NCBI GenBank assembly: GCA_023078555.1
Contig: CM041196.1
Span: 6,149,658 to 6,213,657, forward strand
Reading direction: 5' to 3'
DNA from: Ulva prolifera
Taxonomy: Eukaryota; Chlorophyta; Ulvophyceae; Ulvales; Ulvaceae
DNA length: 64,000 nucleotides
The stretch's first letter is position 1, and every line of letters starts with the position of its first letter. Shown here piece after piece: positions 20,332 through 23,676 of the stretch. The position numbers and the translations under genes were made by a program. The notes beneath the pieces are model-generated. The model worked only from the letters and a program-made list of their open reading frames with translations, was not told where the DNA came from and searched no databases.

Positions 20332-22137
20332 CGCACGGAGATATAGAGTGGTTCCTGTACCACTTACGTCCTTACGTTGCCGTCTGGGGCTGCACGAGTG
20401 GATAATTATGCATCAACGGCACTGGGCATGAGGCACGGCGCTTGCGTTTAATTGACGAAGCTTGTCAGCCGAGCGCACCGCGGTCCCTGAACGCTCTCGG
20501 CGTTGCATCCACGGTAGTGTCTCAGAAATCACGGTGATAGTGGCCACAGGCTAAGAACCAAGGTGTCGCCGTGAAGGCCAGCAGAGCAGTTGCGGTGCAC
20601 GCCTTGATGCGAAGCCGTATGTAACCCGGCTGTACTCCTTCAGAGGTACAACGCCTTGACAGATTTCACATACTGACCTAGCTGCTGGCGCTACCCTTCA
20701 GGACAGCGCTGATGCTGGCCTGATGCAGCGAATGTGTAGAGGTGAACTGGTTTAGCCACTCGAAGCAACAGCTGCGTACGTTAAGGAATGTTCAATCACA
20801 AAGCCACTATAATGTCGAATCATACTTTCGGTACATCGTCGCCCGCTGCACTATCACGAATACATACAATTGACCTTGGCCAGCAAGGGGCTGTAGGCGG
20901 TATGGCAGTTAGTCCGGTCATGCACTTCTAGCAGGGTCAGCCTGATGCAATCGAACGAGGCTACGTCTTTGTTTACGTATAACGCGACGTGGCCGCGACT
21001 GGGCCCCGTTGGGCACCGTGCTCTTCGGTGTCCCTGCTCATCGATATCGGCTCGGGGCTGGCCATGCTGCTCGGGACGAGAACTGCACTGCACCTCCATG
21101 CTGCTCGCGTAAGTCTCGAGCTACTGCTCGCCAACACGACCAACGATACGCGCCATACACCACCGCCCGCGGACAAGTCTGCCATTGTTGACGCTCGAGG
21201 CCTGCTACACGAGGGACGCCCAGCCAGGGCGTCCGGATGCCAAGCACGGCAAGGTCGCGATGCGTCTTCAAGAGCCTTACAGGTATCTCTTCCAATGTCC
21301 GGCGGGAGCCTTGTATCACTGAAACCACAGAAGCATCGCCCTCACGGTAGCTGACACCACCAGAGCCTATAGCTGGGCTGTGTCCACTTGCATGAGGCAG
21401 TCGAGCCTAACGCCCATGCTGTTGCAGCATGGGCGTGCAATTCCTGTGCGCTGTTTCGCAGCAGATCCGCGCAGCATATCGACCGGATCACAGCAAGCCG
21501 CTGTGTTGTGGCACAGCAGCCACGCCTGACGCTCCGCCAGGCTTGCACGGCTGCGCAGGCAGGCTGACCAGCTAGACCCGGGATCCCTTGCAAGGCCTGC
21601 GGCCACGCATACAGTGTGCAGTACACATTGCGCATGCAAGCCCACAGCGCAGCCCGATAGAGCCTACACCCCTCACCACCTGCGCATCAATTAGATGCGT
21701 ATGGTCAGCATATGATCCAGCGCGATCAATACGCGTTATCATGCACTCGGCATGTACTCGCATGTCGCTCTTTGGAATTCCGCTGCGGCGCCACGGAAGC
21801 GGCCACGCAACTCGGCTGGGTGCAGGCCTGGGTGCAGCGCCACTGGGGGCTAGCTCTCACCGGAGGTCTGCATGTATGATGCCCTTTGCGCTGATATGCC
21901 CAGTTGTGAAAGTGGTAGCTGACGCGTGGTGGTGTGTGTGGCCATATCACCAGCTGGAGTGCCGCAGTGTGGCACATGGCCCATGTCAAGTAAAATCAAA
22001 TCTGAATTTAATGTATGGGACATGGGCATATGACATGGGCATGCGTGCAAGCCTCCTGTTTGCGTCACAAGAATAGCGTCCTCGGCTCTCCAACTTGGAC
22101 TGCATGCGTACAACACAACAGCGGCTCTGCATTAGCT
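20332..22137. other. Intergenic region with one strong hairpin
   Basis: No protein gene is supported. A 12-bp inverted repeat with a 3-base loop sits at 21410-21436 (arms ACGCCCATGCTG / CAGCATGGGCGT). Scattered open frames are short and have no domain character. Confidence 0.5.
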
Positions 22138-22204
22138 CGGAGTTGTCAATGTCCAGTAGGATGCGGTTCAGTAAATGTATAATCTATAAGTTCCTGTGTT
22201 ATAT

Positions 22205-22240
22205 TTTAGTATGCCATAACATATGTTATGGCATACTAAA
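22205..22240. repeat. Perfect 36-bp palindrome
   Basis: The left arm is TTTAGTATGCCATAACAT, followed directly by its exact reverse complement with no spacer. It lies in the AT-rich insert. Confidence 0.95.
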
Positions 22241-22270
22241 TGTGGATAAAGAATATTCTTTATCCACATT
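22239..22270. repeat. Perfect 32-bp palindrome
   Basis: The left arm is AATGTGGATAAAGAAT, followed by its exact reverse complement. It overlaps the preceding 36-bp palindrome by two bases, so the two hairpins would stand side by side. Confidence 0.95.
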
Positions 22271-22706
22271 GCTAAGTTTAATTCATACATGATGTCGGAA
22301 ATGCCGTCTTTGCCGTAAGGCAAATGGTTATCACTTCGCTATATGCATGGAATCTCTCACTGCTTTGAAAGCGGATATGAACTATCTTTTTTATAATTGG
22401 CCATGGGTTAGGGTCAACTGAATGAAAACCGTGTTTTTGTTTCAGATTTGCTTTTACTTTACTTTACCAAACTCAAGCTTGCACAGCATCAAGGCTGCAG
22501 GGAGCGGAACAGGCCTGTAAGCACACAGCCTTGAATCGTGTGGAAACATCATCGCGCAGCCATGGTGAATCCTTCAAGTTGCCTCATTGACATACCAGGA
22601 GAGCTGGTCATGGTGCAGGTGTGAGCACTCGCTCTCTGATGCCAATGCTCAGGTAAGCTCAGGCTGTGACCAAGGGGACAAGTTCAGCACTTGCAATGCA
22701 ATAGTC

Positions 22707-22711
22707 AAAAA
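22707..22711 (-). terminator. RNA polymerase III T-run terminator for the permuted tRNA
   Basis: Five T on the minus strand, 13 bases after the end of the tRNA 5' half. This is the expected position for pol III termination if the whole permuted unit is one transcript reading from about 22843 leftward. Confidence 0.65.
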
Positions 22712-22712
22712 G

Positions 22713-22843
22713 TGTGAAGGTAATTCTAGTCTGTCCCCTTAACCGCTCGGGCACAAATGCCCAAGATCGCATTTGACAGGATTCGAACCTGCGCAGGCAA
22801 AGCCTAACAGATGACCAGTGATACCGGATAAATCAGCTTCACA
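22713..22843 (-). tRNA. Circularly permuted tRNA-Ser(AGA) gene
   Basis: Read on the minus strand, the 3' half (22812-22768, residues 38-73) comes first, then a 7-nt linker (22767-22761), then the 5' half (22760-22724, residues 1-37). Reordered, it gives a normal type II serine tRNA of 82 nt: acceptor GCATTTG/CAAATGC (7/7 pairs), D stem CCC/GGG, anticodon stem ACAGA/TCTGT (5/5), loop CTAGAAA with anticodon AGA, variable arm AGGC-TTT-GCCT, T stem GCAGG/CCTGT, and B box GGTTCGAATCC. Discriminator is G; CCA is not encoded. The break falls exactly at the canonical intron site 37/38. Leader (22843-22837) and trailer (22719-22713) carry complementary TGTGAAG/CTTCACA, and a T5 terminator follows at 22711-22707. 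Processing would need ligation of the ends or splicing through a circular intermediate, as in known permuted tRNAs. Confidence 0.87.
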
Positions 22844-23676
22844 GATGTCACTTGGATCACCATTGGTGTTCATATTCCACTAGAAATTTTACGAGGCAGT
22901 GCCCATCGGAGCGCTGCCTCGTTTCTGCTCCATGTCTGAGATTGCATGATGAACTATCGTGTTTGCTGTTACAGCCATCGCAGGTGCGTCACAGACGCAG
23001 CGTGATCGGCTGTCGCAGCACGTGCACAGGTAGTTGGTCGACATCGTCTCACGGCTCAGCCAAGCGCCAGCTTAGTCCGTCAGTGAGCTGTTGCAGGACA
23101 AGGACTGCTCGATGAACGAGTCCACGACGTCTTGCATGCGACACCACAAACCGAGGCCTTGGACAAACTTGCACAACAGCGTGCTCTTTTGATGTTTGTG
23201 CGAAGGTGAGCTGATAGTGAGCCGGCCATGCTTGCTGTGGTCTGCTTCAGCAGAGCCCAGCAGCACTGGTAGACTGCGCTATATCAGGTCAAAGTGATAT
23301 TTTTTTCGCATCTCGATCGAGCTCTTGTGAGCGTGTCAGCGTCACTCTTCGGCAGGGAGTGTGTAGGTTACGCAAGACATTGCGTATGCAGGCGTCCTGC
23401 GGCACTTTTCACCTACAACCTATCCCGAAAATTGTTTTATAGAGCGGGAGGAAAAGCCTTTTAAGGGATGCCGGCACCCGCGGTCACCGAGGTGTGTCAA
23501 TATCTCACTGCGCAGAACTTGACTGCCGCAGATGAAGGACACGCTAATTCCTATCCAAAACTACAGCAATATGCGTGTGTAGTCTGCCATGTGGCAGCGC
23601 TGAACAAGCATCCAGTTGCAAAACCTTTTGCAGCAATGTACTCGAGGCATGGGTAAGCCTGCCAGTCCAAACTGCA
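22844..23676. other. Intergenic region upstream of the MYST gene
   Basis: No gene is supported. It should contain the promoter and 5' UTR of the acetyltransferase gene starting at 23677 and the upstream region of the permuted tRNA transcript on the other strand. Open frames are short and without domain features. Confidence 0.45.

Follow-up and report, generated by a model that had tools for sequence, protein, structure and literature searches.

A functional, type II (37/38) circularly permuted nuclear tRNA-Ser(AGA) gene is probably encoded on the minus strand of the Ulva prolifera window (the whole 64-kb stretch of DNA analysed here), as one of three dispersed copies that appear to be the sole source of this isoacceptor. 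Judged from the sequence, the probability of this reading is about 0.9. It is based on the order of the two tRNA halves, the pairing of the stems, the match to a permuted covariance model (R1), the three dispersed copies, compensatory base pairs, an hBH splice motif kept in 3/3 copies, and the finding of no conventional gene. The TATA-like/ACAYC layout, a T run in 2/3 copies and exons resembling Sen2 and Sen34 add to it, as do the published maturation pathway and the permutation of the same tRNA in other green-lineage genomes, as described in PMC3978253 and PMC4494063. Counted against it are an acceptor mismatch and the lack of a T4 run in one copy (C2), TATA-like elements matching at only 4/6 positions in C1 and C2, weak covariation, and predicted folds that are not cloverleaves.

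On the minus strand, the 3' half of the tRNA (nucleotides 38-73; 22768..22812, with A38 at 22812 and G73 at 22768) precedes the 5' half (nucleotides 1-37; 22724..22760, with G1 at 22760, the anticodon AGA at 22727-22725 and A37 at 22724). The limits of the 3' half were read from the sequence and the permuted covariance model. The halves are separated by the 7-nt intervening sequence ATCTTGG (22761..22767), and CCA is not encoded. Reordering the halves gives an 82-nt class II tRNA with anticodon AGA in which every stem is paired: acceptor 7/7, D 3/3, anticodon 5/5, variable arm AGGC/GCCT 4/4, and T stem 5/5 with one G-U. U8, G18G19, U33 and U54U55C56 are all present in the resulting cloverleaf, and the 37/38 junction is that of type II. 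The conventional layout of an intron-containing tRNA gene, with the 5' half upstream, is not what the locus shows. Direct reading of the sequence thus bears out the swapped halves and 7-nt gap of the original prediction and reproduces all its stem counts. The span that it gave, 22713-22843, contains the gene and includes flanks; the core is 22724-22812.

ARAGORN called no tRNA in the 64-kb window, and Rfam reported none there at gathering score. This silence is expected because the halves are swapped, and the earlier expectation that standard scanners would miss the gene holds for both. A permissive Rfam search of 22600-22950 likewise gave no tRNA, only four snoRNA matches at chance level. Model R1 was built from 18 class I tRNAs of the same genome, permuted in silico with random 7-nt spacers; its training set contains no Ser or Leu tRNA. 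R1 scores the window copy at 36.1 bits (E = 2.9e-9) and the other two copies at 34.0 bits (1.4e-8) and 30.0 bits (2.8e-7), all E-values being rough. Over 70,253 bases (the window and the loci of the C2 and C4 copies), the three permuted copies are the only matches up to E = 10. Over 32,259 bases from 11 loci, seven around other tRNA genes and four around permuted copies, they are the top three of 10 matches; the other seven reach at most 17.5 bits (E 0.0016 to 0.17) and lie in or beside conventional tRNA genes. A loose pattern in permuted order, T arm then D arm, matches once in the window versus 0.09 expected, and 9 of 100 shuffles contain one match. The exact permuted Ser pattern occurs in none of the viral contigs and in none of the prokaryote genome contigs searched. 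Order, stems, the R1 model and two further copies together support the predicted identity as a circularly permuted tRNA-Ser(AGA) gene.

The window is part of contig C1 of an 88.9-Mb assembly of 44 contigs. The two further permuted copies lie on other contigs, C2 (L002; 87% identical) and C4 (L003; 83% identical). The 3' half comes first on the same strand in 3/3 copies, with spacers of 7, 7 and 15 nt that contain neither promoter nor terminator, and no CCA follows G73. In ungapped comparisons, the 3' halves agree at 42-43 of 45 positions and the 5' halves at 35-36 of 37. The leader (22813..22848 in the window) is also similar across the copies, with ungapped identities of 28/37, 24/37 and 20/37 over -1 to -37. 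Identity falls to 2-4 of the first 12 trailer bases and to 17/63-22/63 from -38 to -100 (ungapped). The homology among copies therefore covers the gene and the leader and ends near their edges.

Two stems differ among the copies on both sides of a pair. Specifically, at acceptor pair 4:69 C1 has U-A where C2 and C4 have C-G; at T-stem pair 50:64 it is C4 that deviates, with U-A against C-G in C1 and C2. Both-sided changes thus occur in 2 of 24 pairs, and 71 of 72 cells are paired versus 31-44% in slid controls; with three sequences this covariation is weak taken alone, 62 of 500 shuffles reaching it. The single unpaired cell is an acceptor mismatch, 6G:67G, in the C2 copy, which also has no T4 run within 60 nt. 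Because of these two features, the C2 copy may be weaker or decaying.

Such a copy would suit another explanation, namely a pseudogene without product, in which two tRNA-Ser fragments stand next to each other with their order reversed, either by accident or as what is left of a tandem array. Permuted genes are, moreover, proposed to originate from a tandem duplication in which the outer halves are lost (PMC3978253). Against a pseudogene, the order, the junction, the leader motif and the position of ACAYC are all kept in three dispersed copies, two stems carry compensatory changes, and no conventional gene was found that could have taken its place. We consider it very unlikely that the locus is a pseudogene.

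Dispersed repeats lie near two of the permuted copies. A 43-nt stretch of the window (22137-22179) recurs with 88% identity roughly 0.5 kb from the C4 copy, and inverted 22-nt repeats at 21985-22006 and 22441-22462 are 91% complementary. Some 450 bp downstream of the permuted gene, 22205-22270 is taken up by two adjoining perfect palindromes of 36 and 32 bp, the first being TTTAGTATGCCATAACATATGTTATGGCATACTAAA.

In an hBH motif at the 37/38 junction, nucleotides 32-35 pair with leader positions -6 to -3 and leave a three-nucleotide bulge at the 3' cut. In the window, the leader bases CUGG (22815..22818) face CUAG at nucleotides 32-35 and would form the H helix; this CUAG:CUGG helix has 4/4 standard pairs in 3/3 copies. 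Folding calculations are less uniform. The fold in which the hBH motif is forced lies above the best cloverleaf-constrained fold by 3.2 (C1), 0 (C2) and 1.1 (C4) kcal/mol. In the better folds of C1 and C4, CUGG is taken up by a leader hairpin, and a stretch of the leader (within CUGAUYU) pairs with some bases of the anticodon region and with the start of the trailer. For the C1 precursor, the hBH-forced fold has an energy of -38.2 kcal/mol and the cloverleaf-constrained fold -41.4; the lowest energy, -45.1, belongs to the unconstrained fold, which is not a cloverleaf. Among the mature sequences, the minimum-energy fold is a cloverleaf for C4 and not for C1 or C2. Some pairing between leader and trailer is found in all three precursor folds. 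The hBH reading is thus supported by conservation more than by energy, because CUAG:CUGG is kept in 3/3 copies while the C1 and C4 folds prefer alternatives.

Pairing of the leader with the anticodon loop would also suit joining in trans, as in the split tRNAs of Nanoarchaeum equitans, whose halves come from separate loci and separate transcripts and which the splicing machinery joins at a BHB motif. The Ulva halves, however, are separated by 7, 7 and 15 nt on the same strand, at a single locus in each copy and with no space for a promoter or terminator between them, and the promoter-like and terminator-like signals stand outside the pair. It is therefore scarcely credible that each half has a transcript of its own and that joining takes place in trans.

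Putative promoter signals stand upstream of all three copies. ACAYC lies at -36 in 3/3 copies (ACATC at 22844..22848 in the window, an initiator-like motif), and C1 has a second one at -57. A TATA-like hexamer with at most two mismatches is found at -62 to -65 in 3/3 copies. It is a perfect TATATA in C4, at -62, and a 4/6 match in C1 and C2; in the window this weak element (22869..22876) reads as AATATG at -64 or TATGAA at -62 from the 3' half, each with two mismatches to TATATA. Downstream, the trailer (22707..22723) ends in TTTTT (22711-22707), a probable RNA polymerase III terminator. The T run is T5 from +13 in C1 and T4 from +16 in C4, with none within 60 nt in C2. From the ACAYC position we infer that transcription starts near -36, so that the conserved leader would be the transcribed leader.

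Conventional tRNA genes of the same genome carry similar signals to varying extents. Among 60 such genes, the 70 nt upstream contain a perfect TATATA in 15 and at best a match with one mismatch in 25, two in 17 and three in 3, and a run of T4 or longer follows within 40 nt in 51. ACAYC lies within -32 to -1 in 13 of the 60 and at -100 to -69 in none. A TATA-like element 24-29 nt before ACAYC occurs in 8 of the 60 with at most one mismatch (shuffle mean 0.3, maximum 2) and in 11 with at most two (shuffle mean 1.8, maximum 6), and these motif statistics are descriptive because ACAYC was picked by inspection of the same genes. This spacing is absent from most conventional genes (at least 49 of 60). 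Conserved leaders are not peculiar to the permuted genes, because tRNA-Gly(GCC) and tRNA-Lys genes share leaders as well. Specifically, CTCCAGCCGCAA(A)GCTGCGG stands just before the tRNA in five of six Gly(GCC) genes (L033, L052-L054 and L081), the sixth, L032, having a close variant, and CCACACCYTG is common to five Lys genes (L008, L009, L067, L068 and L075).

Five pattern searches of the 88.9-Mb assembly, which are not equivalent to a complete tRNA scan, found no conventional tRNA-Ser(AGA) gene. The D arm GCCCGAGCGGTTAAGG, with at most two mismatches, occurs at 18 places: the three permuted copies, Leu(TAG), Ser(TGA), two Ser(GCT) genes, and 11 places without an ARAGORN tRNA. A pattern for the 5' half of Ser-NGA tRNAs matches five places, the three permuted copies, Ser(TGA) and one place without a tRNA. 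The 3'-half pattern matches four, the three permuted copies and a Ser(CGA) gene with an intron at 37/38. The contiguous anticodon-arm pattern also matches four places, Ser(TGA) and three without a surrounding tRNA. A longer D-arm (Leu/Ser) pattern matches 10 places, all of which were read: two Leu(CAG), two Leu(AAG), two Ser(GCT), an intron-bearing gene and three places where no tRNA was called. The two Ser(GCT) genes of this last search are additional to those found with GCCCGAGCGGTTAAGG, and the intron-bearing gene is labelled Val(CAC) by ARAGORN, whereas we read it as Leu(CAA). None of the 10 places is a permuted Leu or Ser gene. The Ser(CGA) gene, at L090 1438-1536 (C6:7091029) and with a canonical 37/38 intron, is labelled Thr(CGT) by ARAGORN; Ser(CGA) is our own reading.

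The Ser(TGA), Ser(CGA) and Ser(GCT) genes found are all conventional, and no other tRNA for UCU and UCC is among the genes found by the pattern searches. AGA thus appears to be served by permuted genes only. As to whether a normal tRNA-Ser(AGA) gene exists, the patterns returned none and brought out three permuted copies instead. The original prediction had made dependence conditional on this being the only AGA serine gene; no conventional AGA gene was found, and there are three permuted copies, not one. Because all three copies are permuted and five pattern searches found no conventional AGA gene, it is probable that the cell depends on permuted tRNA maturation.

The permuted gene could nevertheless be real and redundant, with a conventional Ser(AGA) gene that is missing from the assembly or too diverged to match, and with permuted copies that contribute little. 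The assembly could indeed lack a conventional gene, and the searches are pattern-based. The Rfam tRNA family search (RF00005) scored 63 of 1780 candidates, so absence from it carries no meaning; among those scored, it gave at least 60 matches covering 29 anticodons, all conventional in ARAGORN. However, the 5'-half, 3'-half, anticodon-arm and longer D-arm patterns do find Ser(TGA), Ser(CGA) and Ser(GCT) and no other AGA, and the three contiguous anticodon-arm matches outside Ser(TGA) have no tRNA around them. Redundancy is improbable on this evidence.

The searches also returned sequences of other kinds. No permuted initiator tRNA gene was found: the iMet pattern matches 20 places, and the 10 loci read comprise three conventional genes and seven that are not tRNA genes. 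The 5'-half pattern of iMet matches on contigs C1, C2, C3, C4, C5, C7, C8, C9 and C10, and 17 of the 20 matches differ at the 5' edge from the three true iMet genes. The seven of these 17 that were read (L118-L124) contain only nucleotides ~11-40 of iMet followed by TGT, and look like primer-binding sites of half-tRNA-primed retroelements, presumably copia-like. A class I tRNA with anticodon ACT (L055; C1:8917863-8917934) is labelled Ser by ARAGORN and lacks a long variable arm. An AT-rich Thr(TGT) tRNA (L017; C8:1520038-1520108), whose best TATA match has two mismatches and whose first T4 comes at +35, is perhaps an organellar insertion.

Two exons match the catalytic domain of the tRNA-splicing endonuclease. 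One is closest to Sen2 (8iss, E 2.7e-7) and the other to Sen34 (6z9u, E 1.5e-6). Six open reading frames of the window were compared with Pfam and gave MOZ/SAS acetyltransferase, MFS transporter and helicase C domains, a sub-threshold mannosyltransferase, and two without a match; these have no bearing on the permuted gene. Elsewhere, the assembly has 38 LHC-domain matches, and three sequences searched resemble the chlorophyll a/b-binding proteins LHCII, Lhca8 and CP29. Taken by themselves, these matches point to a green alga as the probable host or, less probably, to an alga whose plastid is green-derived. For two of the three sequences the top match is an LHCI chain of 9vfj that contains multiple repeats, and its score is the sum over several of these. 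The CP29-like sequence scores 243.9 bits to 6kac and 189.4 bits to 8bd3, which we take to be from Chlamydomonas and Chlorella, respectively. PsaA and PsaB had no match in the assembly. By eye, no telomere repeat was seen in the first and last 90 bases of 11 contig-end stretches.

For a functional permuted gene, the following route to the mature tRNA may be proposed. RNA polymerase III would start near -36, directed by the upstream TATA-like element, and the primary transcript would run from leader through 3' half, spacer and 5' half to trailer. A Sen2/Sen34 endonuclease would cut before A38 and after A37, and a circular pre-tRNA would arise when tRNA ligase seals A37 to A38. The spacer would then be excised from the circle by RNase P and tRNase Z, and CCA would be added. 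With A34 converted to inosine, the tRNA could read UCU and UCC (and UCA).

The conserved block runs from the putative start (-36/-37) to A37, which raises the thought that copies spread through RNA. The permuted gene would then have wholly replaced the normal gene and multiplied as a unit, with copies arising by reverse transcription of the permuted precursor or of its circle. The leader would persist for its function: it would pair with the anticodon loop and define the splice sites. The one line of evidence for retroposition is where the homology ends, and selection on the leader could equally explain those ends; we therefore regard this history as rather unlikely.

Permuted tRNA genes as a kind are already known. 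A 2014 review lists 34 of them in seven species, with type II commonest in green algae, and describes an hBH motif at the junction and a circular pathway demonstrated by RT-PCR; it gives no permuted tRNA for Chlamydomonas reinhardtii (PMC3978253). Permuted tRNA genes are also reported in Auxenochlorella (PMC12636532; preprint PMC12633428). Such genes are rare, and the lineage list given earlier is slightly outdated in that it omitted Auxenochlorella (PMC12636532). Strain UTEX 250-A of that alga shares with Ulva a green-algal nuclear genome from which standard tRNA scanning yields an incomplete set (PMC12636532).

The closest counterparts are the permuted Ser(AGA) genes of Micromonas pusilla (nuclear) and the Bigelowiella natans nucleomorph (PMC3978253). 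The Amorphochlora amoebiformis nucleomorph has two permuted Ser genes, postulated to go back to the green ancestor of its plastid (PMC4494063). All three organisms have the same tRNA and anticodon as here (PMC3978253, PMC4494063), and the M. pusilla and B. natans genes are likewise 37/38 type II without an intron (PMC3978253, Table 1). Compared by description, M. pusilla and B. natans are single entries with spacers of 64 and 5 bp, whereas here there are three copies with spacers of 7, 7 and 15 nt (PMC3978253). The permuted genes of Cyanidioschyzon merolae likewise have swapped halves, with spacers of 7-74 bp; most have an upstream TATA-like element, and a T stretch lies downstream, to which the TATA-like hexamers of the Ulva copies and the T runs of C1 and C4 may correspond (PMC3978253). 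Their circular intermediate has been shown by experiment (PMC3978253). C. merolae differs in having 11 permuted genes of four junction types, compared with one isoacceptor of type II known here (PMC3978253).

The accessible part of the open-access literature on permuted tRNAs yielded no description of a three-copy, sole-source family. What is new here is apparently such a family of three dispersed copies, together with a shared upstream promoter layout. An apparent sole-source family in an 89-Mb nuclear genome suggests that permuted genes are not necessarily relics of tiny genomes, and the divergence among its copies suffices to reveal which flanking parts are kept. The TATA-like/ACAYC layout, present also in some conventional genes, bears on how transcription works in genes whose A and B boxes are inverted. 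Finally, the patchy occurrence of permuted tRNA-Ser in green algae and in green-derived nucleomorphs raises the possibility of common descent.
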